Assembly: GCA_003152315.1 (NCBI GenBank)
Contig: PLZV01000055.1
Span: forward strand, 1 to 44,168
DNA from: Verrucomicrobiota bacterium
GTDB lineage: Bacteria > Verrucomicrobiota > Verrucomicrobiia > Palsa-1439
DNA: 44,168 nucleotides
Direction of reading: 5' to 3'
In this document: positions 23,051 through 38,882 of the stretch, piece by piece
Numbering within the stretch: position 1 is the first letter of the stretch
Layout of the letters: every line of letters starts with the position of its first letter
Program-made: the position numbers and the translations under genes
Notes under the pieces: generated by a model
What the model was told of the DNA's origin: nothing
Database searches by the model: none
The model's input: only the letters and a program-made list of their open reading frames with translations

Positions 23051-24445
<1,395 letters not shown>

Positions 24446-24460: not shown

Positions 24461-26020
24461 TCAACCAGCTTTGGAAGGGAGTTTCAGGCGACTGAGACGA
24501 AAAATCGCTCCCTTGGGTTCCTTGGGGATATATTGAATCTCCCACCCGTGTGCCAGAACAATTTGCTGGACCACCGCCAGCCCCAATCCCGTTCCCTTTG
24601 GATGGGTGGTGAAATACGGCTTGAAAATCTCGCTACGATTTTCGGGCGAAACGCCGGGGCCATTGTCCCGGACATCGAGCTGCGCCTCCGTGGCGCTGCT
24701 TTTCCGGGAAACAATTTGGATTTCCCCGTGGGTCGGGATGGCCTGGATGCTATTGATCAGCAGGTTAAAGAGAACCTGGCGCAGCAACTGCGCGTCCGCC
24801 TCTACGGTAAGGCCCTCTTCTTCGGTCGTCAGTTGGATGGCTTTGTCATCGATGTCGCTTTGGAGCGCGCGGACCACATCGCCAATCACCGTGCCCAGCG
24901 CGATTGTCGACCGGCGCACTTCTCGCGGTCGGGAATAATTGATGAATTCGTTCAGTTGGGCGGTTACGCGATCCACTTCGTCCGTGATCTGGAGCGACTT
25001 GCCCCGGATTTCCTCGGGTGTGCCGGGTTCTTTGGAAATCATTTGCGCCAGGCCGCGAACGATATTCAGCGGATTCCGCGTCTCATGGGCGAGCCCCGCT
25101 GCGGCCAGGTTCATCTCGCGCAAGTGGGAGTTCAGTTCGCTGGCGCGCAGCAGGTACACCTGCAATTCAGAGGTCTTGACGAGATTCTGCCAGGCCATCC
25201 CGATACCGACGACGGAAACCGTTGCCAGAAAGCCGATGACAAACCGCAGCCAGAGATCCCGCAGGGACGCCGTGCGGAAAGACTCAGTGGACATGGCGAC
25301 CGCCAAACCATGCAGCCCGCGTTTCTTGGTCAATTCCTGGTACTCCTTCTCATCCATCCAAAACGGTCGTCCGAACCGTGGCCGGCCTCCACGGTCCCTT
25401 GGGCCTTCGGCCCGTTCGGCTGTGTTCGTCGTCGCGCTGTTTGTGGCCACGCTGTCGGGAGGGCGTGGGAAACCCGGATCGTCCGGCCGGGGCTCGCCGC
25501 GTTCGAATCCTCTCTCGACATTGCGAACAACATTCGTCGTATCCCGTCGCGACAGAATGATTGTCGGGCGATTGGTCTCGCCTTCGGGTGTTACACTCGC
25601 ACCCAGATCGATCAGGTTCACCAGGGTGACACTCCGGTCATTCCACTGTTCACCCTGCTGTGTCGTATCCATTGTTTGGAGATCAAGGGGTTTGCCCGCA
25701 AAGGCCACCACATAGCCCGAGGCATTTAAGAGCGCGACCGAGATGAGTTCGCCGGATCTGACGAGTTCGTTTAACGCGGATTCCAGTCGTTCCTGGGAGA
25801 CAATCCCTCCGAAGCGCCGCTGGGATCGAATGACAACGCTGAGTGTTGCGGCGATGTCGCGGGATCGATTGACCAGTGTCGTCCGCGCCGATTCTTTGAC
25901 CCAGCGATACTCCAGGACCTGCCAGATGATGATCGTTGCCCAGGTCGCCAGCAATAGCCCGTAAACGAGCGGAGTCCGCCGTCGGATGCGCGAGGTAAAG
26001 GTCGATTCTGATTCGGCCAT
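24461..26020 (-). CDS. Membrane sensor histidine kinase (NtrB/PAS-less type)
   Basis: 519 residues. TM1 (about 19-36), an extracytoplasmic sensor region (about 40-255) and TM2 (about 258-278). Then come a short coiled linker, the HisKA domain with phospho-His312 in GLAHETRNPLN, and an HATPase domain with N box LLINSIQA, G1 DNGPGV and G2 GTGLGLAVV. The sensor region includes an unusual Arg/Gly/Pro/Thr-rich low-complexity segment (about 170-220). The ATG follows the stop of the secretin gene with no spacing, so kinase and secretion genes share a transcript. The likely partner is the sigma-54 activator downstream. The signal is unknown; envelope or secretion status is a natural guess. Confidence 0.93.
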   Translation of the reverse strand: MAESESTFTSRIRRRTPLVYGLLLATWATIIIWQVLEYRWVKESARTTLVNRSRDIAATLSVVIRSQRRFGGIVSQERLESALNELVRSGELISVALLNASGYVVAFAGKPLDLQTMDTTQQGEQWNDRSVTLVNLIDLGASVTPEGETNRPTIILSRRDTTNVVRNVERGFERGEPRPDDPGFPRPPDSVATNSATTNTAERAEGPRDRGGRPRFGRPFWMDEKEYQELTKKRGLHGLAVAMSTESFRTASLRDLWLRFVIGFLATVSVVGIGMAWQNLVKTSELQVYLLRASELNSHLREMNLAAAGLAHETRNPLNIVRGLAQMISKEPGTPEEIRGKSLQITDEVDRVTAQLNEFINYSRPREVRRSTIALGTVIGDVVRALQSDIDDKAIQLTTEEEGLTVEADAQLLRQVLFNLLINSIQAIPTHGEIQIVSRKSSATEAQLDVRDNGPGVSPENRSEIFKPYFTTHPKGTGLGLAVVQQIVLAHGWEIQYIPKEPKGAIFRLSRLKLPSKAG

Positions 26021-27187
26021 CTACTTCGGGCTCTTTGTGGGTTGGTTACCGGCCTTGTTGCTCTTCACCGGCAGGGTGTCGAGGAAGCGATCCAGTTCCT
26101 GTTCCGTGAACGCCTTGGGCAGCAACTGTGAGTTGGCCTTTTCGCCCGCTGACAAGGCCGCCAGTTGCGAAGGTTGTGTGACGATGTGCGGGGTCAGGAA
26201 GATGATCAGCTCGGATTTTGTGTAACTCTTCGTTTGACGTTTGAAGGCATTGCCGATGAACGGAATATCGCCCAGGATGGGGATTTTGCTGTCCGTGCTC
26301 GTCTTGTCGGTTTCCATCAAACCGCCGATGATAACCGTTTGCGCATCGGGTACGACCACCACAGTATCGGCGGAGCGAGAATTGATGACCGGGGCGCTGA
26401 CCGAGCCGCTCGGCCCGCTGGAGATGGGAACCCACTGGCTGCGATCGGCGAGTTCCGAGATCTGAGGTGACACGATCATTTCCACCAGGCCCTCAGGAGT
26501 GATGAACGGAGTTACCTGCAAGATCACCCCAACAGGTTGGTAGGTGACGGTGTTGATCTGGTTGCCCAGCGTGTCAAAGCGCGTGCTGGTGATGAGGGGA
26601 ACCTGCTGGCCCAGGTTGATGGTGGCCTGCTGGTTGTTCCGGGCGAGGATCGACGGACGTGACAGGATTTCCGTCTTTCCCGCTTGCGCAATCAATCTCA
26701 AGGTGGCCGAAAAATCATTCCCCAAGATGGTGTAAAGTCCGGCACCGGGCGGCACGGGAGCGGCCCCCGATGAAAGGAGCCCGAAGATATTCGAGGCCGT
26801 ACCCGTCATCGGGCCGCGGAGCTTGCCGGTGATGTTGCCTTCAATGCCAATATCCGAAGCGTTATTATAAGTGACTTCCAAGAATACGACCTTGATCAGC
26901 ACCTGGGGCTTCGGGCGATCCAGACCGCGGATCACTTGCTTGATATACTGGGCCGTCTCATCGTCGGCGATCACGGTGATTTGTTTCGTGTCGGGGTCGC
27001 TGGAAATGATCGCGTCCCCGATCGTGCCGTTTGGGACATAAGGTCGGCTGGTCGCCGTGCTCGAAGCCGCTGCCGCTGGTCGCGGCGCTTGCCCCTGTCC
27101 TTGCGCGTGCGCCTGCAGCATGGCGCACAGGCAGATACCCAGGCCACCAGCCAGAATCTTTATGAACCGCGAATAATCGGTCATCAT
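26021..27187 (-). CDS. gspD: Secretin, C-terminal half (half N3 plus beta-barrel)
   Basis: 388 residues. It has its own signal peptide (about 1-28, ends QAHAQ) and a Gln/Ala/Pro-rich linker. Residues 60-92 (IISSDPDTKQITVIADDE, then IKQVIRGLDRP) match only the second half of a secretin N3 domain. KPQVLIKVVFLEVT leads into the secretin barrel (about 95-345), with the barrel-core stretches LSRPSILARNNQQATINLGQ and IGGLMETDKTSTDSKIPILGD. The end (346-388) is short and polar. No N0, N1 or N2 domain is present. It starts 43 bases after the gene for those domains, with a GAGG ribosome site. The protein should form the outer-membrane pore of the type II system, with the periplasmic rings supplied by the upstream gene. 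Confidence 0.9.
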   Translation of the reverse strand: MMTDYSRFIKILAGGLGICLCAMLQAHAQGQGQAPRPAAAASSTATSRPYVPNGTIGDAIISSDPDTKQITVIADDETAQYIKQVIRGLDRPKPQVLIKVVFLEVTYNNASDIGIEGNITGKLRGPMTGTASNIFGLLSSGAAPVPPGAGLYTILGNDFSATLRLIAQAGKTEILSRPSILARNNQQATINLGQQVPLITSTRFDTLGNQINTVTYQPVGVILQVTPFITPEGLVEMIVSPQISELADRSQWVPISSGPSGSVSAPVINSRSADTVVVVPDAQTVIIGGLMETDKTSTDSKIPILGDIPFIGNAFKRQTKSYTKSELIIFLTPHIVTQPSQLAALSAGEKANSQLLPKAFTEQELDRFLDTLPVKSNKAGNQPTKSPK

Positions 27188-27230: not shown

Positions 27231-28853
27231 CTAGTTTCCCCCAAATCCACCGCCACCGCCTCCAACGCCCGTCCCGCGTCCCATGCCGCTGGTCGTTGTG
27301 CCCTGATTATTTCGTGTCGTGCGACTAGTGAGGGCATCGTTCTGTCCATTCTGCGTCGAAGAATTATTCCGCTGTGTCGTCGTGTCCTTGTTGAACATGT
27401 CCTTCAATACCGGCAGCACATCCGTCACTTCGGCGTTCTCCAGCGGGATGACATAGACGCTTTGTTTCCTGGAGGAATTGCCGTCGAGCTGCTCGATCAT
27501 GGCGGCGATTTGGGGCATCAAATCACCTGCGGCGCTGATGATGACCGAGGAAGTGCGTTGGTCCGGCACCGCGATGACCTGGCCTTTCTTCTTCATCCGG
27601 TCACTTGTCGGCGTCTGCGCATTCTGGGCGTTTCCCTGGTTGAAGAAGCCTCCCAATCCTCCGCGAAAACGGACGGCGGCCTGGTTCTGGTCGGCTGTGC
27701 GACTGTCATCCGGAAACAACTGCGAAAAAAGCGCCGCGGTCTCCACCGGATCGGCGTTGGCCAAATGAAACACCCGCAATTCCGTGACGTCCGTAACGCT
27801 GACGTCGATTTCCCGGACCAATTGCTCAATCGTGGGAATATATTCGTCTGGTGCGCTGACGACCAGAGAGTTACTGCGGTCATCCGCCACCGCTGAGACG
27901 TGGGGGACCACTCGTTGCGCCGCCGCATTGTCTGCGGCACCACCTTGGCCGCCTGCTTGACCGCCACCACCACCGCCGAAGCCACGGAAGAACTGGCGAG
28001 GATTGTTGCCTTGCTGCTGGTTGGTAGTGGGCGACGTGAACAACTCCTTGACCGCGGCTGCCAAATCCTTCGCATCCGCGTATTTCAACGGGAACACGCG
28101 CACGGTCGAAACGCTGGAGACGGAAGTATCCAGCGCGTTGACGATTTCCACCATGCGGCGCACGTTGGCCCGCGTATCGGTCAAGACCAGCGCATTGGCG
28201 CTGTCGTTCGCGGTCAACGTGGCGTAAGCGGGTTTGAGTGGTTCCAGGTCTTTAAGTAACTGGGAGACGTTGGCATAACGGACCGGGATGATTTGCGTGA
28301 CCATTTCATCGGTCTTGGGGATGGCCTCAGGATTGCTGCCGGGCATGACCGGGATGTTCCGTTTCTTCGCGTCGTCACGGCTCATGATCGTCAATGTCCG
28401 GCCGTTGCGAATTGCCGCATACCCATTGCGATTCAGCGCGGAATCCAGCACCGCGACTGCTTCATCCTTGGTGAGCGGGTGGTTGTTCCAGACATCCACC
28501 TTGCCTTTCACTTCCGTCTCCAAAACGATGGTGAAGCCGGCGGCCTTGCTCAGGTAATCCAACACCATTTCCAGCGGCGCACCCCGGAAGTTCAGGCGCA
28601 ATTCGTCATCGCCTGCGGGCGCCTCCGCTGCAGCCACGGTGTCCGTCGTTGCGGTTTCACTGGGTTTCTCGGCCACAGCGATCTCGTTTGTCGACGGCTG
28701 ATCAGCAGCCGCTGATGGAGCATCGGGTTGCTCGACGGACGGGCTGTTGGTCGAGGCCGTCACCTGAGACGTATCAGTCGTCTGGCCGATTGACACGACG
28801 ACGATCCCCCAGATGAAACCGAGCATTAGTATGGAAGTTTTCATGGCGTTCAT
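27231..28853 (-). CDS. gspD: Secretin, N-terminal half (N0-N1-N2 repeats and half N3)
   Basis: 540 residues with a signal peptide (about 4-24) and an acidic Ser/Thr/Ala-rich linker (25-82). N0 (85-157, LNFRGAPLEMVLDYLSKAAG), N1 (184-246), a second ring domain (250-353) with a Gly-rich loop at 293-306, and a third (357-460) follow. The last recognisable piece, 464-488 (SVYVIPLENAEVTDVLPVLKDMF), is the first half of an N3-type domain. It is followed by a 50-residue Asn/Thr/Gly tail and a TAG stop. The barrel is missing and sits in the next gene. Loss by a sequencing frameshift is unlikely because the next gene has a ribosome site and a full signal peptide. The start overlaps the gspC-like stop (ATGA). 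Confidence 0.9.
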   Translation of the reverse strand: MNAMKTSILMLGFIWGIVVVSIGQTTDTSQVTASTNSPSVEQPDAPSAAADQPSTNEIAVAEKPSETATTDTVAAAEAPAGDDELRLNFRGAPLEMVLDYLSKAAGFTIVLETEVKGKVDVWNNHPLTKDEAVAVLDSALNRNGYAAIRNGRTLTIMSRDDAKKRNIPVMPGSNPEAIPKTDEMVTQIIPVRYANVSQLLKDLEPLKPAYATLTANDSANALVLTDTRANVRRMVEIVNALDTSVSSVSTVRVFPLKYADAKDLAAAVKELFTSPTTNQQQGNNPRQFFRGFGGGGGGQAGGQGGAADNAAAQRVVPHVSAVADDRSNSLVVSAPDEYIPTIEQLVREIDVSVTDVTELRVFHLANADPVETAALFSQLFPDDSRTADQNQAAVRFRGGLGGFFNQGNAQNAQTPTSDRMKKKGQVIAVPDQRTSSVIISAAGDLMPQIAAMIEQLDGNSSRKQSVYVIPLENAEVTDVLPVLKDMFNKDTTTQRNNSSTQNGQNDALTSRTTRNNQGTTTSGMGRGTGVGGGGGGFGGN

Positions 28854-29476
28854 TTGTTCAACTCCTTTTCCCGCTGTTGCATCAATCTCTTAAGAACCGC
28901 GTCGGCACTGCTGCCGGTACTGGGTCCGTCATCGGAAGTCTCTGTATCTTTCGTTTCGGAAGTGGCAGTCTCCGATACTTTGGCGAGCGCCACGGTGCCA
29001 TCCACCAGTTGCCACTCTCCCGCATCAAGTTTTTTCATCTGCATTCCCACGGTCATTTTGATCTGGTTGCCGTTGGTCTCCAGCTCGACATAGTCGGGGG
29101 CGACTTCCGTGACCTTGTAGTCGGCGATGGTGCCGGCAACTTTCAGGACCTTCTTGTATTTCGAATCGCTGCCGCTGAAAAAAGCGAACTCTCCCCGCTT
29201 GTCAATCAATGTGCCCACGAGGGAGAAACCCTCCGCGCGCGCCAGGCGATTGGGGTCGATCCGCCGGCCCCGTTCACCCGATCCCGCCCGACGGTTGGGG
29301 TCGAAAATGTTCCGTTGCGTGATGATCTTGAAATTTTGGAGAGACACAGCCGACGAGGCGTTGTTCGTATCACCGGCGTAGCCTGCGGCGGGAAGGCAGG
29401 ACAACACGGTGGCGAGGGCGAGCCGGGCCCACGTCAGGCCGTCGATTCGTTGTCGTTGTTTCCCGGAATGCTTCAT
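28850..29476 (-). CDS. GspC-like inner-membrane/periplasmic protein
   Basis: 208 residues. An N-terminal hydrophobic helix (about 16-34) is followed by a homology-region-like domain (about 45-150): FKIITQRNIFDPNRR, then EGFSLVGTLIDKRGEFAFF and VELETNGNQIKMTVGMQMKK. That order matches the GspC HR domain, which binds the secretin N0 domain. It ends with a Ser/Thr/Asp-rich linker and a short basic helix, with no PDZ domain. Position between gspM and the secretin gene, with four-base overlaps on both sides, supports the call. A true GspC has an uncleaved anchor; here the helix ends in an AAGYAG-like site and may be cleaved. It could also be called PilP-like. Confidence 0.75.
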   Translation of the reverse strand: MKHSGKQRQRIDGLTWARLALATVLSCLPAAGYAGDTNNASSAVSLQNFKIITQRNIFDPNRRAGSGERGRRIDPNRLARAEGFSLVGTLIDKRGEFAFFSGSDSKYKKVLKVAGTIADYKVTEVAPDYVELETNGNQIKMTVGMQMKKLDAGEWQLVDGTVALAKVSETATSETKDTETSDDGPSTGSSADAVLKRLMQQREKELNK

Positions 29477-30015
29477 GGTTGTTCCGCCGGTTCTCCGGTG
29501 AGGACCAATCCGGTAAAACGTACTCCGAGTGAAAGCTGTTGACCATCGTTATCCCGCGAGGAGATTTCGACGTCCTCCACTCGCAACGCCAGCGGTTCCC
29601 GCTCCAAATCATAGAGAAAGCGCATGAGGGATGACATGTCTCCGAAGGCATCGGCCCGGCATTCCAGTGTCACGTAGTCATCCGCGTTCTGCTTCCATTG
29701 GGGCTTGATGGAGGTGAAGCTGATCCCGCTGTCCTGTGTCCAGGTATCCACGGACTTCAAGACTTTGCTTTCCGCCATCGACAGGTTAACGGGCAGGGTG
29801 TTGCTGGCCATGTTTGACCATCGTTTCCGAATCTCCTTCTCCCGGTCGAGTAGGAGTTTGCCCTGGGTGAGGTCTTTCGACAGTTCCACAATTCGCTCGG
29901 AGCGTTTTCCCCAGACGTGACCCAACGGCGTGAGAATCAGCCGATCAAGGGCCAACAGCGCCACCGCGCTGATCGCCACGACCGTCAGCAGCTTTTGGCG
30001 ATTCTCAATTTTCAT
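29473..30015 (-). CDS. GspM/PilO-like assembly protein
   Basis: 180 residues. A short cytoplasmic start (MKIENRQK) is followed by a TM helix (about 9-27), a periplasmic coiled coil (about 35-65), and a ferredoxin-like domain (about 75-170) with ECRADAFGDMSSLMRFLYDLE and ALRVEDVEIS. This is the plan of GspM/PilO inner-membrane proteins, which pair with GspL. ATG 30015 has GGAG six bases upstream; an ATG at 30027 is less likely. It overlaps the gspL-like gene by 11 bases and the gspC-like gene by four. The call rests on topology and position, as sequence is poorly conserved in this family. Confidence 0.78.
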   Translation of the reverse strand: MKIENRQKLLTVVAISAVALLALDRLILTPLGHVWGKRSERIVELSKDLTQGKLLLDREKEIRKRWSNMASNTLPVNLSMAESKVLKSVDTWTQDSGISFTSIKPQWKQNADDYVTLECRADAFGDMSSLMRFLYDLEREPLALRVEDVEISSRDNDGQQLSLGVRFTGLVLTGEPAEQP

Positions 30016-31456
30016 GGGTGGCTCCATCCGACCAATGAAAGTCGAAGGTGAATTGCAGGGGCGACTTGCCGCGGACTGACTGGACCTTTACATCTTCGAC
30101 GTGGTTCGCTGCCCGCAGCCGGTCCAGCAGCTTCAACAGGGCCTGGTTGTCATCCGCCACGCCCGAGCAGGAGACTTCCGAGAGGTCCTTGATTTCGAAT
30201 GTCTTCACCGAAACCACGCCGTCTTCTGGAAAGGCCTGGGTGAGGTTTTTGAGAATGGTCAAGGTGCGCGCTGAATTGTCGAACCACGGCCGAAACTTGC
30301 GGACGTTTTGTTGCATCCCATCGATTTCCGTGACTCGGGGTTCGATGGCGTGCCAACGCGATTCCAGAATCGAAAGCCACGTATATTGCACCAGGAAGGC
30401 CAGCAAAACCAGAAGGACGGCGGCTCCCGCCGTCACGCTCGACCAAAGGATCCGGCGTGAGGAGAACCGCGCCGCGAGTTCCATCCACGGGCTGACCTTC
30501 GGAGGTAGAAACTCGAAACCGGTGGGATTGCCTTCCAGGGAGCGGAGCGCCATCACCAGTGCCGGCGGAGCATTTTCCGGAAGGGAAGCCAGCGCGTCAA
30601 CCCCGTCCACCTGGGCGACGAGGCGCACTTCCACCGGCAGCCCCATGCGCCCCGCGATTGCGGCGATTTCGTCAGCCAGCGGTTGCGTCCATTCGGTGCG
30701 TCCGAAGACCCTGATCCTGGTGACCGCTTCCCGGAATCCAGCGGGCAATTGTCCCAGCGTCAGCCGGATTTCCCTCGTCAGCAAATCCGTGTCGATCTGG
30801 CGATGACCGTTGTCGGTCTCGATGGCCCCTTCCAGGGAACGCAGCGCGACGACACCGCCACCACACGTAATTTGCAGATCAACCCTGCTCTCGCCAACCA
30901 CCAGGGTCAGGATGCCTTCCGATTCCGCGGCAGACGGCAACTGCAAGGCGGCAACCAGCAGCGAAAAACTGACCGGCTTGAGCCGGGCGGCGACGAGAAC
31001 CTGTTCGAGGCGCGCCAAATAATCCCGGGGTATCGCCACAAGGGTGGCATACGGCCCATCCTTGGCGGAGCGGCAGCGTGAAGTCGCCGTGCGCAAGTCT
31101 TCAGGGCCATAGGGAAAGCCTCTTTCGGACTGGATGCTGAGAAAACTGGTGACATCCTCCTCGGGGATTTCGGGCAATTTTACCGGCAGTGTCAACGCCC
31201 AATTGAGGGGAACGCCGACCGCGCACCGGCTTTCATGCACCCCGGCTTCATCGAGTCGATTGCGAATCTCCTGCCCAACCAGCTCTGGATCGTTCGTCAA
31301 CGGATCCAGCGAGAGCAGGGCTTCAAAAGGTTGGCCCGCTTCCAGCGAACCTTTGCCGCGTGAAAGAATGATCCCTTCGAGTCGCCGCCCCTCGATGGTC
31401 AAGCCCATCAGGGACGACCCACGCGGCGTCAGGAGTTTTAGGAAATCCAGCGTCAT
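30005..31456 (-). CDS. GspL/PilM-like assembly protein
   Basis: 483 residues. An actin-like cytoplasmic domain (about 1-325) with SLMGLTIEGRRLEG at the start and CAVGVPLNWALTLPVKLPEI is followed by one TM (about 345-366) and a periplasmic part (about 370-480). The latter holds a coiled coil and a ferredoxin-like fold (VVSVKTFEIKDLSEV). This fits GspL, which recruits the ATPase GspE to the inner membrane. The start ATG (31456) overlaps the gspK stop (TGATG); a GTG at 31459 is also possible. Family members share little sequence outside the fold, so domain order and operon place carry the call. Confidence 0.82.
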   Translation of the reverse strand: MTLDFLKLLTPRGSSLMGLTIEGRRLEGIILSRGKGSLEAGQPFEALLSLDPLTNDPELVGQEIRNRLDEAGVHESRCAVGVPLNWALTLPVKLPEIPEEDVTSFLSIQSERGFPYGPEDLRTATSRCRSAKDGPYATLVAIPRDYLARLEQVLVAARLKPVSFSLLVAALQLPSAAESEGILTLVVGESRVDLQITCGGGVVALRSLEGAIETDNGHRQIDTDLLTREIRLTLGQLPAGFREAVTRIRVFGRTEWTQPLADEIAAIAGRMGLPVEVRLVAQVDGVDALASLPENAPPALVMALRSLEGNPTGFEFLPPKVSPWMELAARFSSRRILWSSVTAGAAVLLVLLAFLVQYTWLSILESRWHAIEPRVTEIDGMQQNVRKFRPWFDNSARTLTILKNLTQAFPEDGVVSVKTFEIKDLSEVSCSGVADDNQALLKLLDRLRAANHVEDVKVQSVRGKSPLQFTFDFHWSDGATHEN

Positions 31457-32892
31457 CACATGTTCCCGGTCAGTTGCCAGCTTTGTCGGGCGGCACCGAG
31501 CGCCCGAGTCATTTGATTCAGATCTCGCCGATAAATGATGTGCGGTGTTCCGCCACTTGTGTCGAACACGAACAGGGCTCGCCGGTACCCGCGCCCATGA
31601 TGGCCGACCGCGGCAACGTCAGCAGTGAGTTGGTAGCTCTTGGCGGTGATATACGGGCCGGCTTGGGTGGCTCCGTCGTTTCCCAGAGCTTGCGCCACCC
31701 AGCCCACGGTGGCCAATTGGTCGGGATGGGTCTGTCGATAGGTGACAAGCGTCTGTGCGTTGTTTACCCCAATGCCGGGCAGACAGGCCAGGACCGTGGC
31801 GGAAGCGGTATTCACGTTGACCAAGCCCTGGATATACGGGTCGGCGCTCACGGTCAACGCGTCCGCAACCTTAGCGAACTCATCGGCGGTCATCCCACTG
31901 CTGATGTAGAATTGGAGAACACTGGTAAACGTCGCGTTTCTTCCAAGCTGTTGCAGGATCTGGGTCGCGCGGTCCGCGCTCAGGGCATTCTGCAGCACGG
32001 TCCGCAAGCCGGCTTGGCCGCGGGCGCTGATATTGATGCGGGGTGTACCGTCGATTTGTGTATTGGGTTCGCGGCTGTAGACAGTGACATATTCAAGAAT
32101 TCCTGCGTTCAACCCACCGTCGAGATTGGCGACGGTCTGCAAAGTATTCTGATTGTTCTCATTGGCATCGAGGATGCCGTTCAGATTGATGTCCACGCCA
32201 TACAAGATGTCCGTTGTCGCACCGATCACGAGTTTCAATTCATCAATCGTCTCGAACGGGGCGTTCTTGCAATGGTATGGCGGGTTGAGCATCCCGTATT
32301 CCAATTCCGCGCCCCCGGCGGTGATGGTGGTGGCGGCGTTTCGCCAGTTCAGGATCGAAGCGGCCAAATCGGGCGTCATGAACGGCAAGGCTTCCAGCAT
32401 GTCCAATGTCGCCGTATTGAGATTCAGCTTTGACGCTTCATCGACGAGGGCGAAAACCGGAACGCCGCTATTGACGTTCGAGGTTCCGCCGGTATCCCGT
32501 CCAATCAGCCAGAAGTGCGCGTTCCCCACGGACACATCCTGGCCCTGATACGTTTGGGTGAACGGCGTCTGTCCCGATTGCGGAGTGTACGCCTGAATGA
32601 CACCCGGCAGGATCAGGACGCCGGGCATGTTCGTGCCCTGCGACAGGATCTGCTGTTGAAGATTGGTGAGGACGGCGCTGATGTAGCGGGCGGCGCCCTC
32701 GATGGCCTGATCGGCCTCGACGCTGGCCTCATAATTGTCGGTCGCCTGGAGATTGAACAGCATCGACTGCCCGAAATACAGGGCAATGCTCACCAGGCCA
32801 AAAGCGATCCAAAGGACAATCACCAGCACCGCCGCATTTGGCGATGACGCGCTCCATCCAACACGCTGCTGTATGGAATTCCCGGTCTTCAT
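31456..32892 (-). CDS. gspK: GspK-like minor pseudopilin
   Basis: 478 residues, longer than the usual 300-330. The N-terminal pseudopilin helix (about 19-41, AAVLVIVLWIAFGLVSIALYF) has no Glu5, as is normal for GspK. The alpha-domain holds LVDEASKLNLNTATLDML, a calcium-loop-like DINLNGILDANE (about 235-246), and a helix-hairpin-helix near the end (VNVNTASATVLACLPGIG). GspK of enterotoxigenic Escherichia coli binds calcium, so the loop is consistent. It caps the pseudopilus tip with GspI and GspJ. It overlaps gspJ by four bases and the gspL-like gene by one. The extra length lies mainly after the first alpha-domain. Confidence 0.88.
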   Translation of the reverse strand: MKTGNSIQQRVGWSASSPNAAVLVIVLWIAFGLVSIALYFGQSMLFNLQATDNYEASVEADQAIEGAARYISAVLTNLQQQILSQGTNMPGVLILPGVIQAYTPQSGQTPFTQTYQGQDVSVGNAHFWLIGRDTGGTSNVNSGVPVFALVDEASKLNLNTATLDMLEALPFMTPDLAASILNWRNAATTITAGGAELEYGMLNPPYHCKNAPFETIDELKLVIGATTDILYGVDINLNGILDANENNQNTLQTVANLDGGLNAGILEYVTVYSREPNTQIDGTPRINISARGQAGLRTVLQNALSADRATQILQQLGRNATFTSVLQFYISSGMTADEFAKVADALTVSADPYIQGLVNVNTASATVLACLPGIGVNNAQTLVTYRQTHPDQLATVGWVAQALGNDGATQAGPYITAKSYQLTADVAAVGHHGRGYRRALFVFDTSGGTPHIIYRRDLNQMTRALGAARQSWQLTGNM

Positions 32893-33599
32893 CCGCCGAT
32901 TACGCTCCCCGCCGTGGCGACGCTATTACTGGGGACTTGTCCGTCCACCGGAACCAGGACCTCCAGCGGCAGGCGGCCCTGCCCGGTGGAATTCCCGTTG
33001 GCAAATTCGATATGGACCTTGATCGCTTGCGGCGCGGGCGTTACTGCCGACGTCGAATCCCAGGTGGTCTGCCAGTTCGCGCCGTCGAAAAATGAAAACT
33101 GCACAGAGCTGACGCCGCTCAAGAGCGGCTGCTCGGCGAGGTCCGGTTGCGTGGACGCCAGCAGGTTACGCGTGACGGCACGGATCAGGTCCTTGCCCAC
33201 TGGATGCGAGGCATTGGCCGAATCCTTCAACAAGTAGGAAACTTTTTGAACGTCCCCCCACGGCTGGTTGTCGCGGAGCACGCCGGTCGTCGTATATATG
33301 TCCAGGTCTGTGGGCTGGTTGTTGCCGCTTTCCGTGCCGGGGCTTTCGATGGAAATCGCCATTGTCCCGCCCGTAATCAACGTGCCCCGCAAGTCGGCCT
33401 TGAGGATCGAGGCGGCATGACCCTGCGGGACGCTGTTTTCGACCAGGTCGGTGGTGACCGACCGCAAATGCAACGCGGCATAGAAAGCGGCGTTCATGGC
33501 CGCCAGAACGATCGCGGCGATCAGCGTAGCGACCAGCACCTCCAAGAGGGTGAAGGCGCTGGCGTCTGAAAGCTTACGTTGGTTGCCTCGACGCGTCAT
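32889..33599 (-). CDS. gspJ: GspJ-like minor pseudopilin
   Basis: 236 residues. The prepilin leader (about 1-15, MTRRGNQRKLSDASA) is followed by FTLLEVLVATLIAAIVLAA, with Glu at mature position 5. Ala, not the usual Gly, stands before the cleavage site. The globular part is long and beta-rich, ending in RLPLEVLVPVD, which fits GspJ size and position between gspI and gspK. It forms the tip complex with GspK and GspI. Four-base ATGA overlaps on both sides. Confidence 0.82.
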   Translation of the reverse strand: MTRRGNQRKLSDASAFTLLEVLVATLIAAIVLAAMNAAFYAALHLRSVTTDLVENSVPQGHAASILKADLRGTLITGGTMAISIESPGTESGNNQPTDLDIYTTTGVLRDNQPWGDVQKVSYLLKDSANASHPVGKDLIRAVTRNLLASTQPDLAEQPLLSGVSSVQFSFFDGANWQTTWDSTSAVTPAPQAIKVHIEFANGNSTGQGRLPLEVLVPVDGQVPSNSVATAGSVIGG

Positions 33600-34024
33600 G
33601 GGGCTGTGTCCGGCAATACGGTGCTCAAGTGCACGTTGTAATTCTGGCCTTGTACCGGGTATATGACCTCGACGGTTGCGAGCCGCAGGTTGTTGAGGCT
33701 GGCGTCACCGCCCCACGGTTCGTTCTTCACAGTCCATTGATAGCCCGGCCACTGCGGGCCGCAGGCGCCGCCCTGGCCGGAGTTGTGCCATTGGCCGGTG
33801 ACGATCAGTTCGTTCAATTTGCTTTCCGCCAATTGCACGGCCACGCCCTTGCGCGCGGCGACCGCGCCGGCGCGGCTGGCGATCCGCAAGCCCTGCAAGG
33901 CCACTGGGATGACAATGGCCATGAAAAGCATGGCAGCCAGCATCTCGACCAGCGTGAAGCCGTCTTGTAAACTCCGGCTACCACGAGATCGTTGCCCGCG
34001 CATTTGTTTTCTGAACCGTGACAT
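33596..34024 (-). CDS. gspI: GspI-like minor pseudopilin
   Basis: 142 residues. A basic leader (about 1-22) ends in Gly, then FTLVEMLAAMLFMAIVIPVAL with Glu5. The helix runs into a small domain containing AESKLNELIVTGQW, a stretch typical of GspI. The start is uncertain: ATG 34024 and ATG 34003 both lack a strong ribosome site. The gene overlaps the gspH-like gene by 26-47 bases and gspJ by four. It is expected to nucleate the pseudopilus with GspJ and GspK. Confidence 0.82.
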   Translation of the reverse strand: MSRFRKQMRGQRSRGSRSLQDGFTLVEMLAAMLFMAIVIPVALQGLRIASRAGAVAARKGVAVQLAESKLNELIVTGQWHNSGQGGACGPQWPGYQWTVKNEPWGGDASLNNLRLATVEVIYPVQGQNYNVHLSTVLPDTAP

Positions 34025-34547
34025 AATTCAATTGATTCTGTGATTCCACGATGGCCGACCAATCGCCATCGTCCTGCACGATTACCACCCGGCGCAAACT
34101 GCTTTCTTCAATGGAGCCATCGGGCGCAAACAGGATGCTGGCTCCTTGCTTCGGGAGCGCCACTCCTTGCTCGAACTGAAACCGCAGCCCGTCCCCCAGC
34201 TTGTAGCTCACATCCTTCCTGGTTCCCGCCGGTGCCGTCGCTCCCCCGGCACTAAACCCGTCCTGCACCCGCAGGCCGTACGTCCCGTTCGCGGGATTCA
34301 TCCACAAAATCATCGGCAACCCTTCCGAGGCGGCGCGGCTCTGGCCATAGCGTGTCAGGGCCAGCAGTCTCTGGCCTTCTTCCGCGACCGTTTGCCCATG
34401 AAAAAACCTCGCCAGACGGGGCGCGCCGATGGCGATCACGATCGAGAGCAGGGCCATCACCACGATCAATTCAATCAGCGTAAACGCACCGCGCCGCGGC
34501 GGCCTAACGCTTCTGTCGTGATTGGTCCCAGCTCGTGATGTCATCAT
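33978..34547 (-). CDS. gspH: GspH-like minor pseudopilin
   Basis: 189 residues from ATG 34547 (an ATG at 34544 is equally possible). Basic leader MMTSRAGTNHDRSVRPPRRGA, then FTLIELIVVMALLSIVIAIG with Glu5 and Ala at -1. The rest is a beta-rich domain (LLALTRYGQSRAASEG, ILFAPDGSIEESSLRRVV) typical of GspH/FimT. The frame is open to 34682, but that part overlaps gspG and is not prepilin-like. The start overlaps the end of gspG by about 44 bases, unusual but compatible with coupled translation. Confidence 0.82.
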   Translation of the reverse strand: MMTSRAGTNHDRSVRPPRRGAFTLIELIVVMALLSIVIAIGAPRLARFFHGQTVAEEGQRLLALTRYGQSRAASEGLPMILWMNPANGTYGLRVQDGFSAGGATAPAGTRKDVSYKLGDGLRFQFEQGVALPKQGASILFAPDGSIEESSLRRVVIVQDDGDWSAIVESQNQLNYVTVQKTNARATISW

Positions 34548-34968
34548 CGCCACCCGCGCGTCCATCGGGTCCCATGGACATGATGTCGTACGTGCTTGCA
34601 TTGTGTTTCCCCGGACAATCGTAAATGTAGGCCTGTCCCCACGGGTCATTGGGAATGCTTTCCTGCTTGAGGTAGGGTCCATGCCAATTGGGCGCGTCCT
34701 TGGGCTGGGCGACGAGGTCGGTCAGGCCGTTCTTGCCCTTGGGATAATACCCGTTGTCCACCTCAAAGGCATCGAGAGCGGTTTCGAAATTGGAGATTTG
34801 CGTTTTCGCGGCGGTGTTCCGCGCCTGTTCGGTTCGTCCCGCAAATTTCGGCACGACGATGGCGGCGAGCACCCCGAGAATCACGAGCACGAGAAGCAAT
34901 TCGATCAACGTAAACGCCTCGGCGCTGGTGCCGCGAGACTGATTTCTGATTGATTGGTGTCGTTCCAT
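34504..34968 (-). CDS. gspG: Major pseudopilin GspG
   Basis: 154 residues. Leader MERHQSIRNQSRGTSAEA, then FTLIELLLVLVILGVLAAIV with Glu5, and the conserved FETALDAFEVDNGYYP. WGQAYIYDCPGKHN and the calcium-binding C-terminal loop follow (MSMGPDGRAGGDDDITSWD), all diagnostic of GspG. The ATG at 34968 has AAAGGAG eight to nine bases upstream; the frame upstream of it overlaps gspF and is noise. Position -1 is Ala. It forms the main shaft of the pseudopilus. Confidence 0.96.
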   Translation of the reverse strand: MERHQSIRNQSRGTSAEAFTLIELLLVLVILGVLAAIVVPKFAGRTEQARNTAAKTQISNFETALDAFEVDNGYYPKGKNGLTDLVAQPKDAPNWHGPYLKQESIPNDPWGQAYIYDCPGKHNASTYDIMSMGPDGRAGGDDDITSWDQSRQKR

Positions 34969-34988: not shown

Positions 34989-36230
34989 TTATTTGATGTA
35001 ATCCTGAAGCGAGAAGATCGGGAGGGCCATCCCGATGAAAATTGTGCCGATGAATCCGGCAATGAAAAACAACATCAACGGCTCGGCGAGGGACACGGCC
35101 ATCTTCAACTCGCGGTCCAGATCCCGCTCGGTGACGTCCGCCAGGCGAATCAACTCCTGGTCGAGGCGGCCACTTTCCTCCGCCACGGAAATCATTTCCA
35201 GGACGGAGCCGGTGAAAAGTTCCCGGCAACTGGCCAGGCTCGGCCCCAACGCCGCGCCTTCCTTCACGCGTTCGATGGAGTTGGCGACGGCATCCACCAG
35301 AATCTGGTTCCCGATGGACTTGCGGGCAACGGTCAATCCATTGATCAGTGGCACACCGGCGGTCAGCAAGGTCCCAAGCATTCGACAGAAACGGGCCATG
35401 GCGAACTGTGCGATGAGTTTTCCCACAACCGGGGCGCGCAGGAGGAAACGCTCCCAAATACGTCTTCCTTGTTGGGACCGCATCCAGTTGCGAATGAAAT
35501 AGCCGCCCAACGCCAGTCCCAGCGCCACGAAGAAACCGTAGGACCGGACGACGGTGCTCGTGGCGATGATCATCCGCGTTAGCAGCGGCAGGGTTCCACC
35601 GAACTCAGTGAAAAGAGGCTGTAACCTCGGTATGAAGAACACCAGTAGAAAAACAAGGACGGACAGGGCCACTGCCAACAGGATCGTCGGATAGAGCAGG
35701 GCGGCCATTACCTTCGAACGCAATTCCTTTTCCCGCGCTTGAAAATCGGCGATCTGCGCGAGCACCAAGTCCAGAAACCCGCCGGTTTCGCCGGCCTCGA
35801 CCATCGCCACGTAAACGCGCGGAAACGTCTCCGGCCACCGCGCCATCGTATCGGCGAGTGTTGCACCGTCCACGACCGAATCGTGGATCTCTTTCCACTT
35901 TGTCCGGGCCAGGGGTGTGGAGGCTTCGCGATGAAGGATTACCAGGGCCCGGCTGAGGGGGACACCCGCCGCCAGGAGGCTGGAAAGCAACCGTGTAAAA
36001 TTCTCCAGCGTGCGACTGGAAATTTTCCTGGAAGCCCAGGGTGACGCCACCATTTCTTTTTTCGATTCGACGTTCCTGGCGGCCTGGCCATTGGCGCCAG
36101 CCGACAAGCTGATGGCGGTCAGGCCAAGTCCTTCAATTTGACGAAAAGCTTCTTGTCGGCCCTCGGCGTCGATGTTGCCTTGCGTGAGGGTTCCGTCGGT
36201 CTGTAGTGCTTTGTAAAGGAAGAGTGGCAT
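34989..36230 (-). CDS. gspF: Inner-membrane platform protein GspF
   Basis: 413 residues (family usual about 400). Two T2SSF domains are seen: the first with FTRLLSSLLAAGVPLSRAL and MVEAGETGGFLDLVL, the second with FCRMLGTLLTAGVPLINGL and MISVAEESGRLDQELIRLA. Membrane helices lie at about 170-195, 220-240 and 375-398. The preferred start is ATG 36230, two bases after the gspE stop; a TTG at 36236 is less likely. It links GspE to the growing pseudopilus. Confidence 0.96.
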   Translation of the reverse strand: MPLFLYKALQTDGTLTQGNIDAEGRQEAFRQIEGLGLTAISLSAGANGQAARNVESKKEMVASPWASRKISSRTLENFTRLLSSLLAAGVPLSRALVILHREASTPLARTKWKEIHDSVVDGATLADTMARWPETFPRVYVAMVEAGETGGFLDLVLAQIADFQAREKELRSKVMAALLYPTILLAVALSVLVFLLVFFIPRLQPLFTEFGGTLPLLTRMIIATSTVVRSYGFFVALGLALGGYFIRNWMRSQQGRRIWERFLLRAPVVGKLIAQFAMARFCRMLGTLLTAGVPLINGLTVARKSIGNQILVDAVANSIERVKEGAALGPSLASCRELFTGSVLEMISVAEESGRLDQELIRLADVTERDLDRELKMAVSLAEPLMLFFIAGFIGTIFIGMALPIFSLQDYIK

Positions 36231-36232
36231 CG

Positions 36233-37951
36233 TCAAGCTTTCCCGGGTGCCGCTGTGGGAGCAGTGACAGGCTCAGTTTTGTTGGTGCGCGCCACTTCCT
36301 TGGCGGTCGTCACGCTTAGCACTTCTTCGACAGTGGTGATGCCCAGACGCACGAGGCGCCAGCCGTCTTCCGCCAGGGTGCGCAGGCCCGCACGGCGGGC
36401 CGCTTCCCGGATGACGTCGCTGGAAGAATTCTTCAGGATCAACTGCCGAATTTCGTCGTCGGAGTCCATCCACTCGAAAATGGCGTGGCGACCGAAGAAG
36501 CCGGTTTGCCGGCATTCCCGGCAACCAACCGAACGGTAGATCGTGGTATTGGCGGGAATGCCCACTTGCACCTTGAACGCCCGGGCCGCGGGAGATTCAT
36601 CCACTTGTTTGCAATGCGGGCAGAGCACGCGCACGAGGCGTTGGGCCAGCACGGCTTCGAGTGACGACGCGACGAGATAAGGTTCGACGCCCATATCGAC
36701 CAGGCGAGTCAGGGCACCGGGGGCGTCATTGGTGTGGAGCGTGGAAAAGACCAGGTGACCCGTGAGGGAGGCTTGCACGGCAATTTGTGCCGTTTCCTGG
36801 TCACGAATTTCGCCGATGAGAATGACATCGGGGTCATGGCGCAGAATGGAGCGCAGGCCCCGGGCAAAAGTTAAGCCGGCTTTTTCGGACACCTGAATCT
36901 GGTTGACACCCTTGAGTTGATACTCGATCGGGTCTTCAATCGTGACGATCTTGCGGACGGCATCGTTGATTTCGTTGAGGGCGGTGTAGAGCGTGGACGT
37001 CTTACCGCTGCCGGTCGGCCCAGTCACCAAAATGATGCCGTGGGGCAATTGAAGGACGCGACGGAAGCGATCCAGTTCGGGTGTATCCATGCCCAGTTCG
37101 CCCAAGCCGCGCAACGTGGCGTTCTGGCGGAGCAAACGCATTACCACCGCTTCGCCGTGGAGCATGGGGATGACAGAAACGCGGATGTCCACTTCGCCGT
37201 CATCGATACGGATCTTGATACGGCCGTCCTGCGGCAGGCGTTTCTCGGCGATGTTGAGATGGCTGAGAATCTTGATGCGCGAAACGATGGCCGGTTGAAA
37301 CCGCTTGAGTTGGGAGGGGACCGGGACTTCCTGGAGCACGCCATCTATCCGGTAGCGAATGCGAAACTCGTGTTCGAACGGTTCGAGGTGAATATCCGAC
37401 GCCCGCAATTCGATGGCGTCGCGCAGCACCTGGTTGACGAAGCGGATGATGGACGCGTCTTCCGCCGCGGCGTCCAGATCGGTATCTTCCTCGGAGCCAT
37501 CCTCGTTGACCACCTGCAGAGGCGTTTCCTCTTCCAGCGTGCCGATGGTGTCCGCGCCGACGCCCAGTCGTTTTTTCATTTCCCGCTGGATCGCCTCGCT
37601 CGGGGCGAGGATGGGCTTGAGTTTCAAGCCCGTCATCGCCTTGAGGGTATCCAGCCCCTGCGTGGCAAACAGGCGGCTCGTGGCCACTTCCACAGAGCCG
37701 TTGACACGCTTCAAGGGGAGGAGTTCTTCCTTCAACAGGATGCGCGGGGGAAACAGCGATAAGAGTTCACGATCCAACTCGACGTTTTCCAGGTCGGTGT
37801 AGGCCAGTCCATACTCCCCGGCCAGCCAGCGGAGCACGTCCTCTTCGGAGCGAACGGCTTTTGGGCCGTCTCCGGGGCGCTGGGCCAGGGTTGCGGCATC
37901 CGCGACCGACAGTTGCCGCGCCTGCACCATTTTGTCGAGTAGCTCTTTCAC
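36233..37951 (-). CDS. gspE: Type II secretion ATPase GspE
   Basis: 572 residues. An N-terminal T2SSE_N domain (about 30-140) precedes the ATPase (about 165-545), with SDIHLEP, Walker A GPTGSGKT (311-318), Asp box TIEDPIEYQ, Walker B DVILIGE (375-381) and a His box around HTNDAPGA. Four zinc cysteines, 444, 447, 477 and 480 (CPHC, CREC), show the GspE/PilB type and not PilT. It starts with GTG, with GGGGA about eight bases upstream. It powers pseudopilus assembly. It follows the Gly-rich leader gene by 31 bases. Confidence 0.96.
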   Translation of the reverse strand: MKELLDKMVQARQLSVADAATLAQRPGDGPKAVRSEEDVLRWLAGEYGLAYTDLENVELDRELLSLFPPRILLKEELLPLKRVNGSVEVATSRLFATQGLDTLKAMTGLKLKPILAPSEAIQREMKKRLGVGADTIGTLEEETPLQVVNEDGSEEDTDLDAAAEDASIIRFVNQVLRDAIELRASDIHLEPFEHEFRIRYRIDGVLQEVPVPSQLKRFQPAIVSRIKILSHLNIAEKRLPQDGRIKIRIDDGEVDIRVSVIPMLHGEAVVMRLLRQNATLRGLGELGMDTPELDRFRRVLQLPHGIILVTGPTGSGKTSTLYTALNEINDAVRKIVTIEDPIEYQLKGVNQIQVSEKAGLTFARGLRSILRHDPDVILIGEIRDQETAQIAVQASLTGHLVFSTLHTNDAPGALTRLVDMGVEPYLVASSLEAVLAQRLVRVLCPHCKQVDESPAARAFKVQVGIPANTTIYRSVGCRECRQTGFFGRHAIFEWMDSDDEIRQLILKNSSSDVIREAARRAGLRTLAEDGWRLVRLGITTVEEVLSVTTAKEVARTNKTEPVTAPTAAPGKA

Positions 37952-37982: not shown

Positions 37983-38525
37983 TTATGGCAGAAGTCCCAT
38001 TGAGACTGCCGTGGCTTCCTGGCGAACCGTCAGCACCTTACGGAGGGCTTCCTGGGCCTTTGTCAGGGCCGCTTCTTTCGCCTTGCGAGCGTCGCGGAGC
38101 TTCCCGAGCTTGGCTTTCAATTCATCCGGGGAAGCCTTTGCATCCAATGCCTTTTGCAGATCCTCGGCTTCGGGACTTGGAGGGGCGTTGAAACCACCGC
38201 GACCGCCGTTGCGACCAGCGTTGTCACCACCGCCACCGCCGCCGTTATTACGGCGACCACCGAAACCCATTCCACTCATGGTTGCGCGTCGCGTATCCAT
38301 CACTTTTTGGATCAGGCCCTGGACGGCGACCCATTCGTCATCGTTGGTCATCTCCAGGCGTTCCTTGAAGCGATCCATCATCTGCTGTTGAAATTGTGCC
38401 GGGTCAAAATTTCCGCCCCGTCCGCCGCCGCCGCCGCCATTGTCCTGGGCCATTATGTTTCCCGCCCCGGCTACCAGGGCGGCCAATCCAACCGTCAACA
38501 ACCACGGTCTCATCATTCTTTTCAT
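37983..38525 (-). CDS. Gly-rich exported protein, first gene of the secretion operon
   Basis: 180 residues. The signal peptide MKRMMRPWLLTVGLAALVAG ends near NIMAQ at about 27. It is followed by a Gly/Arg/Asn stretch (28-40), a helical part (about 43-75, FQQQMMDRFKERLEMTNDDEW), a second Gly/Asn-rich linker (82-108), and a long charged helical end (about 115-172). The layout is similar to verrucomicrobial hypothetical proteins with Spy/CpxP-like helices; no function is established. GGAGGAGA lies eight bases before ATG 38525, the best ribosome site around; the frame upstream to 38747 is noise. It sits 31 bases before gspE under the sigma-54-type promoter at 38610-38625, so it may be an abundant substrate, chaperone or regulator of the system. 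Confidence 0.85.
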   Translation of the reverse strand: MKRMMRPWLLTVGLAALVAGAGNIMAQDNGGGGGGRGGNFDPAQFQQQMMDRFKERLEMTNDDEWVAVQGLIQKVMDTRRATMSGMGFGGRRNNGGGGGGDNAGRNGGRGGFNAPPSPEAEDLQKALDAKASPDELKAKLGKLRDARKAKEAALTKAQEALRKVLTVRQEATAVSMGLLP

Positions 38526-38576
38526 CGCGCGATCTCCTCCAACTTTGTTTGGTTGATACGTTCCTGTTACCACAGA

Positions 38577-38602
38577 GCAGGGTATACTGCAGATAACCCT
38601 GC
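38577..38602. promoter_or_regulatory. 26-base dyad at the predicted transcript start
   Basis: GCAGGGT (38577-38583) and ACCCTGC (38596-38602) are perfect inverted arms around ATA-CTGCAG-ATA, with a second palindrome in the middle; 20 of 26 positions are symmetric. It covers about +1 to +23 of the sigma-54-type transcript. It could be a repressor site or a 5' RNA hairpin. No T-run follows, so it is not a terminator. Confidence 0.45.
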
Positions 38603-38609
38603 TATCCTT

Positions 38610-38625
38610 AGCAAACGAGATGCCA
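38610..38625 (-). promoter_or_regulatory. Sigma-54 (-24/-12) promoter of the secretion operon
   Basis: On the minus strand the sequence reads TGGCATCTCGTTTGCT. The invariant GG (38624-38623) and GC (38612-38611) are separated by exactly ten bases. Ten of the twelve defined positions of TGGCACG-N4-TTGCW match. The predicted start is near 38599, leaving a leader of about 75 bases to ATG 38525. The operon it would drive ends with a GAFTGA-type sigma-54 activator. Confidence 0.75.
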
Positions 38626-38668
38626 CGTGTAGAAAACCCTTTGAAATCAAGCATTCTGCGAAGTCTGG

Positions 38669-38674
38669 TGCGCA
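38669..38674. promoter_or_regulatory. Extra TGCGCA motif, possible second activator half site
   Basis: This self-complementary hexamer also forms both arms of the dyad at 38702-38718. It starts exactly 33 bases before the first arm, about three helical turns. A TGCGAA (38657-38662) precedes it with a six-base gap, so a degenerate second site is possible. Confidence 0.4.
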
Positions 38675-38701
38675 TTGTCTTCACAGACACAGGGCTTCCG
38701 T

Positions 38702-38718
38702 TGCGCAAACGCTGCGCA
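38702..38718. promoter_or_regulatory. NtrC-like enhancer dyad (TGCGCA-N5-TGCGCA)
   Basis: Two TGCGCA hexamers (38702-38707 and 38713-38718) are separated by five bases. The Escherichia coli NtrC site is TGCACY-N5-GGTGCR, the same six-five-six geometry with similar TGC/GCA ends. The centre lies about 111 bases upstream of the predicted sigma-54 start, the classic range for an enhancer. Confidence 0.6.
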
Positions 38719-38882
38719 TGAATGTTTTTTCCCAGGCACGCAGACAAGGGGGCGCGCGGGAGAGGTGCTTAGGAGGATGAAGCGGTGGGAACCGCCCCGC
38801 GCAGCCGCAGCCAAGGAGGACTGGCAGCATTGTAAAGCTAGTGAACGGGCGCGACGATCCGATTTCGATGCGGTAACAATTT

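Follow-up and report, generated by a model that had tools for sequence, protein, structure and literature searches.

A Verrucomicrobiota type II secretion operon with predicted sigma-54 promoter and predicted paired enhancer sites, and with its own kinase/activator pair

The NtrC enhancer of glnA has two palindromic sites in tandem, spaced by about three turns of the helix and placed upstream of a -24/-12 promoter, and PilS-PilR is a kinase/activator pair that acts with a sigma-54 promoter on the type IV pilin gene of a machine related to the type II secretion system (T2SS). Activators of the VasH type, in turn, are not known to have a receiver domain. Type VI secretion (T6SS) clusters encode their own sigma-54 activator, such as VasH in Vibrio cholerae and Sfa2 in Pseudomonas aeruginosa (PMC10482370), and in Escherichia coli and Salmonella ZraR controls zraSR and zraP via divergent sigma-54 promoters (PMC4987338). 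For type II secretion, the accessible text of one report describes the T2SS-2 of Plesiomonas shigelloides as RpoN-dependent and as the first such case (PMC9743648), and that of a 2025 survey predicts an enrichment of sigma-54 among T2SS genes, chiefly in Myxococcia and to a lesser extent in Polyangia and Planctomycetia, Verrucomicrobiota not being named for T2SS in the same text (PMC12316311). In the openly accessible literature, outside of which most subscription papers lie, we found no such report from Verrucomicrobiota and no T2SS operon with its own kinase/activator pair and enhancer sites.

In this work we analyzed a T2SS operon in a stretch of 44,168 bp (contig PLZV01000055.1 of assembly GCA_003152315.1, referred to as the window), which we consider very probably to contain a sigma-54 control unit dedicated to a single T2SS, judging from sequence comparison. 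As in the T6SS clusters with VasH or Sfa2, a secretion cluster encodes the sigma-54 activator predicted to control it; unlike those, the system is of type II, it comes with a histidine kinase, and its activator has a receiver domain. Like ZraP/ZraSR, the locus has a kinase plus NtrC-type activator and, as predicted, sigma-54 control of both this pair and a small exported protein (periplasmic in the Zra system), and the Zra models give best or near-best scores, whereas ZraP/ZraSR has no secretion system and uses divergent promoters. While PilR drives a pilin gene, the pair is here contained in a complete 13-gene assembly operon. Predicted sigma-54 control is held in common with the Plesiomonas T2SS-2 and the surveyed T2SS genes, for which the accessible parts of the two sources describe neither a dedicated operon-encoded kinase/activator pair nor enhancer sites. 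Paired tandem sites upstream of a -24/-12 promoter recall the glnA enhancer, but those found here are nearer to the promoter and their distance from it is almost constant across families, a near-fixed spacing which is unusual among sigma-54 systems. Sigma-54 control of T2SS has thus already been predicted elsewhere, and what this operon adds is its own pair and its enhancer sites.

The first-pass annotation had proposed an apparent operon of 15 genes, and the gene map bears this out: 15 contiguous minus-strand genes run from 38525 to 23051, neighbors never being more than about 45 bp apart, in the order small exported protein, gspEFGHIJKL, an M-like and a C-like gene, two secretin genes, histidine kinase and NtrC-type activator (Table 1). 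GspE, F, G and K and a secretin occur together in this one cluster, as in a type II secretion system; GspE and GspF score slightly below their NCBIfam equivalog cut-offs and GspK above its Pfam cut-off. In the inner-membrane platform L and M were recognised by PilN/PilO domains alone and C by position, the C-like protein giving no Pfam match. Instead of a single-protein GspD, there are two neighboring genes that each encode one part of the secretin. It is split in the same way in all 39 loci in which both parts could be read, and the system with its split secretin is a variant that we file as T2SS-like. The pore-half gene was seen to have its own signal-peptide-like start.

Table 1. Features of the predicted control region and of the operon in the window.
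Feature	Position	Strand	Remarks
Distal predicted enhancer dyad TGCGCAGCGTTTGCGCA (TGCGCA-GCGTT-TGCGCA)	38702..38718	-	76 bp upstream of -24; at 71-76 bp in most relatives
Proximal predicted enhancer dyad TGTGAAGACAATGCGCA	38669..38685	-	degenerate, 2 mismatches; 43 bp upstream of -24, where the proximal dyad is conserved
Sigma-54 -24/-12 element TGGCATCTCGTTTGCT	38610..38625	-	predicted from sequence; kept in relatives
Expected transcription start	38599	-	about 12 bp past the -12 GC, from sigma-54 promoter geometry
Ribosome binding site ggagga	38535..38540	-	predicted from sequence
First gene, exported helical protein of 180 aa, rich in Gly and Arg	37983..38525	-	possibly Spy/CpxP/ZraP-like
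gspE ATPase	36233..37951	-	PF00437; TIGR02533 607.9 bits vs cut-off 630.25
gspF	34989..36236	-	TIGR02120 350 bits vs cut-off 424
gspG major pseudopilin	34504..34968	-	prepilin N-terminus FTLIELLLVLVILGV; orthologue conserved
gspH-like pseudopilin	33978..34682	-	weak TIGR01708; open frame begins within gspG, true start uncertain
gspI-like pseudopilin	33596..34024	-	weak TIGR01707
gspJ-like pseudopilin	32889..33599	-	weak TIGR01711
gspK	31456..32892	-	PF03934 and PF21687 above cut-off
gspL/PilN-like	30005..31459	-	PF05137
gspM/PilO-like	29473..30027	-	PF04350
gspC-like	28850..29476	-	by position only; orthologue at same place in relatives
Secretin N-domain half	27231..28853	-	N0 domain, Secretin_N domain in three copies; covers TIGR02517 1-277
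Secretin pore half, separate gene	26021..27187	-	PF00263; TIGR02517 positions 278-599
Membrane histidine kinase	24461..26020	-	HisKA, HATPase_c
NtrC-type sigma-54 activator	23051..24445	-	receiver, AAA+ sigma-54, Fis-type HTH, GAFTGA

A -24/-12 sequence with exact GG-N10-GC spacing had been placed by the same annotation about 85 bases before the first gene, and it was located at 38625-38610, with the GG at 38624-38623 and the GC at 38612-38611 (minus strand) and 85 bp between the end of TGGCATCTCGTTTGCT and the ATG at 38525. Its reading as a promoter had been made to depend in part on rpoN being present and on conservation of the motif; rpoN is encoded in the genome (E 1.1e-60), and in relatives the element is kept at the same place with the enhancer dyads at near-fixed distance. 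When the 44 kb window was scanned with TGGCAYN5TTGCW, TGGCATCTCGTTTGCT was the sole match without mismatch. In the 4.89 Mb genome there were 11 exact matches against five for the reversed control, so that the motif alone is about two-fold above chance and weak evidence, and it is conservation rather than this single match which makes TGGCATCTCGTTTGCT convincing. An inverted repeat of 28 bp, AGCAGGGT-N12-ACCCTGCT (38576-38603), lies directly past the expected start; a role as operator or 5' hairpin was considered and dropped because G010, the closest relative, does not preserve the repeat.

Upstream of the -24 element there are two tandem dyads with the consensus TGCGCA-N5-TGCGCA, the distal of which is the only match to TGCGCAN5TGCRCA in the whole genome. 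Of 30 loci, 25 have a proximal dyad that ends 39-44 bp upstream of -24, and 21 have a distal dyad that ends 70-77 bp upstream; several of the exceptions are displaced by roughly a turn of the helix (51/81, 61/92), and in a few loci the dyads are found 140-240 bp upstream instead of 40-77. Shuffled upstream DNA gave a proximal dyad at the conserved position once in 2000. In a TGG-anchored alignment with one locus per family the -24/-12 letters alone rise above a flat background, it being noted that these letters were partly selected by the search and the dyad positions were not. That the -24/-12 match arose by chance and has no function, as an excess of only about two-fold over the reversed control might suggest, appears extremely improbable in view of its conserved position, the flat flanks around TGGCAC-N5-TTGC in relatives, the near-fixed spacing of the dyads, and the loss of promoter and dyads together.

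The candidate regulators agree with what had been claimed for them: the activator (23051-24445) has a receiver, an AAA+ domain with intact GAFTGA loop and a Fis-type HTH, which are the domains of a group I bEBP (NtrC-type response regulator), and its neighbor (24461-26020) has the HisKA and HATPase domains of a histidine kinase. The best NCBIfam scores of the kinase are to ZraS and AtoS, far under cut-off (ZraS 177.6 vs 479 bits), and ZraR and AtoC are among the best models for the activator (ZraR 404.6 bits vs cut-off 760), so that the pair falls short of ZraS plus ZraR at the equivalog level that defines ZraPSR. The activator orthologues examined carry GAFTGA, GSFTGA or GAFSGA and a conserved receiver Asp region, and the recognition-helix region of the window protein is on average 81% identical to its orthologues.

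A class-wide search returned 44 GspE orthologues, to which G009 with its split gspE was added to give 45 loci for comparison. In G009 gspE matches in two segments (query 2-189 and 255-570) while the remaining operon and the promoter are intact; an assembly fault or a damaged gene is possible. The GG-N10-GC promoter was present in most of the 45 loci, mostly 65-140 bp before the first-gene match, and missing in the others. In an independent search an activator orthologue, with at least 62% identity to the window protein, was found in 32 genomes and none was found in 13. Upstream DNA could be read at 44 loci, G157 being left out where its contig ends. Dyads were present in all 31 readable loci of activator-bearing genomes, paired with a GG-N10-GC promoter in 30; the exception, G163, has activator and dyads and a promoter with GG-N11-GC only. 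At the 13 loci from genomes without the activator orthologue neither dyads nor the dyad-promoter pair occurred (0/13). All 13 of these genomes retain rpoN, which excludes rpoN loss as the cause of promoter loss and indicates that it is the specific activator, and not sigma-54, which tracks the sites. The sole genome without an rpoN match, G095, has activator, dyads and promoter, for which reason the missing gene is probably an assembly gap.

The dynamics of these gains and losses were followed on a GspE+GspF tree, on which the activator, dyad and promoter traits were measured separately. Presence of the activator changes five times; among independent pairs, of which there are five, the dyads change with it in every one and the dyad-promoter pair in four, the fifth being G163. 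With five pairs a sign test cannot fall below p 0.0625, and the number of events thus limits the argument from the tree. It could be supposed that a different activator binds the dyads and was lost by coincidence together with this kinase/activator pair, the genome having about 12 sigma-54 activator genes and the phyletic pattern having been compared for the 23051-24445 orthologue alone. We hold this to be improbable, since the operon retains the kinase and, over 44/44 readable loci, the presence of the dyads goes with that of the activator, even where the activator is unlinked. Predicted sigma-54 control of the T2SS by this two-component pair is, on these comparisons, well supported.

The arrangement was also searched for in a second set of 80 named Verrucomicrobiota loci, many of them from subdivision 3, Pedosphaera, Limisphaerales or Limisphaera and some otherwise named, using limits taken from the first set and 1.5 kb upstream of gspE. 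It was present in 49 of 79 loci, compared with 2 of 1356 control windows from the same loci, and in about 42 of 68 once 11 contigs sized like contigs of the first set were removed. A strict distal-dyad-plus-promoter pattern gave 12 matches in 45 whole genomes, every one of them directly upstream of this operon, and none with the reversed control. At the stringency of this pattern a single predicted target is found for the activator, and weaker ones are possible.

Two other perfect -24/-12 matches in the genome were recorded. One (TGGCATTAGCATTGCT, C11:194221-194236) ends 47 bp before a dnaK-like reading (MAKVLGIDLGTTNSCMAV) with a ribosome site, and sigma-54 control of this heat-shock chaperone is possible. 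The other (C20:10533-10548) lies 61 bp before a gene for a 406-aa signal-peptide protein and about 0.7 kb past another sigma-54 activator domain (C20:9334-9834).

The first-pass annotation had further read the locus as a closed circuit, which holds as gene order in this genome and does not hold as a conserved property: in 18 of 30 placeable genomes the activator is at the end of the operon, and in the other 12 it is elsewhere, the kinase remaining in the operon. None of the 12 unlinked activator genes has dyads or a good -24/-12 site close upstream, and direct autoregulation of the unlinked gene via the same dyads was therefore rejected. This could mean that the promoter is real, sigma-54 dependent and activator-driven, that the activator level is set mainly by other promoters, and that the end position is a convenient gene order with no meaningful feedback. 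In favor of this reading, the tree shows at least eight changes of linkage, and in some linked relatives a gap of 0.5-1.2 kb precedes the activator; in the window, however, kinase and activator are separated by 15 bp, and a consensus scan of the operon gave neither an internal sigma-70 promoter nor a terminator that was convincing. We give such an uncoupled activator a serious chance, though somewhat less than an even one. Feedback is in any case not general, since the activator is unlinked and dyad-free in 12 genomes; from the gene orders compared, feedback through the activator is a variable feature and the predicted control of the operon by the activator the constant one. As the activator here lies within its own operon, activation should reinforce itself, and positive feedback in this genome is plausible.

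A homologue of the first gene was found upstream of gspE at every locus with sufficient upstream DNA. AlphaFold predicts a helical hairpin with good confidence, the Gly/Arg-rich parts being of low confidence; a profile search gave a weak match to Spy (E 0.25), and fold comparison gave Spy, CpxP and CnrX at Z of about 5, within the noise of helical bundles. In family, profile and fold comparisons the resemblance to Spy/ZraP-like proteins never rose above background, and the protein is possibly Spy/CpxP/ZraP-like, a reading made attractive by the kinase scoring best against ZraS and the activator among its best against ZraR/AtoC. If so, the operon might form a secretion-coupled envelope-stress circuit, in which a Spy/ZraP-like first protein would restrain the kinase until substrates or misfolded proteins occupy it, and the T2SS would be made on demand via a private sigma-54 activator without other targets. 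We regard this extension as unlikely.

Promoter and dyad conservation, their near-fixed geometry and their co-occurrence with the activator have been computed, and around them the following mode of action is proposed for the dedicated control unit. Sigma-54 RNA polymerase would sit at the -24/-12 element awaiting activation. The membrane kinase would sense a signal, probably on the envelope side, and presumably phosphorylate the NtrC-type activator, dimers of which may then bind both dyads (at about 43 and 76 bp upstream) and come together as an ATPase ring that opens the promoter. Transcription would then run through all genes from that of the exported protein to those of kinase and activator, a predicted co-transcript of 15 kb, and activation would be self-reinforcing until the signal ends.

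To our knowledge, how Verrucomicrobiota time the building of their type II secretion machine has not been studied. The operon offers a concrete and testable candidate switch. Its parts are a single promoter, a pair of enhancer sites, a kinase and an activator, and their gains and losses in nature allow comparison. Furthermore, cis sites and regulator occur together so strictly that the predicted binding site of an uncharacterised activator can be assigned from genomes alone.
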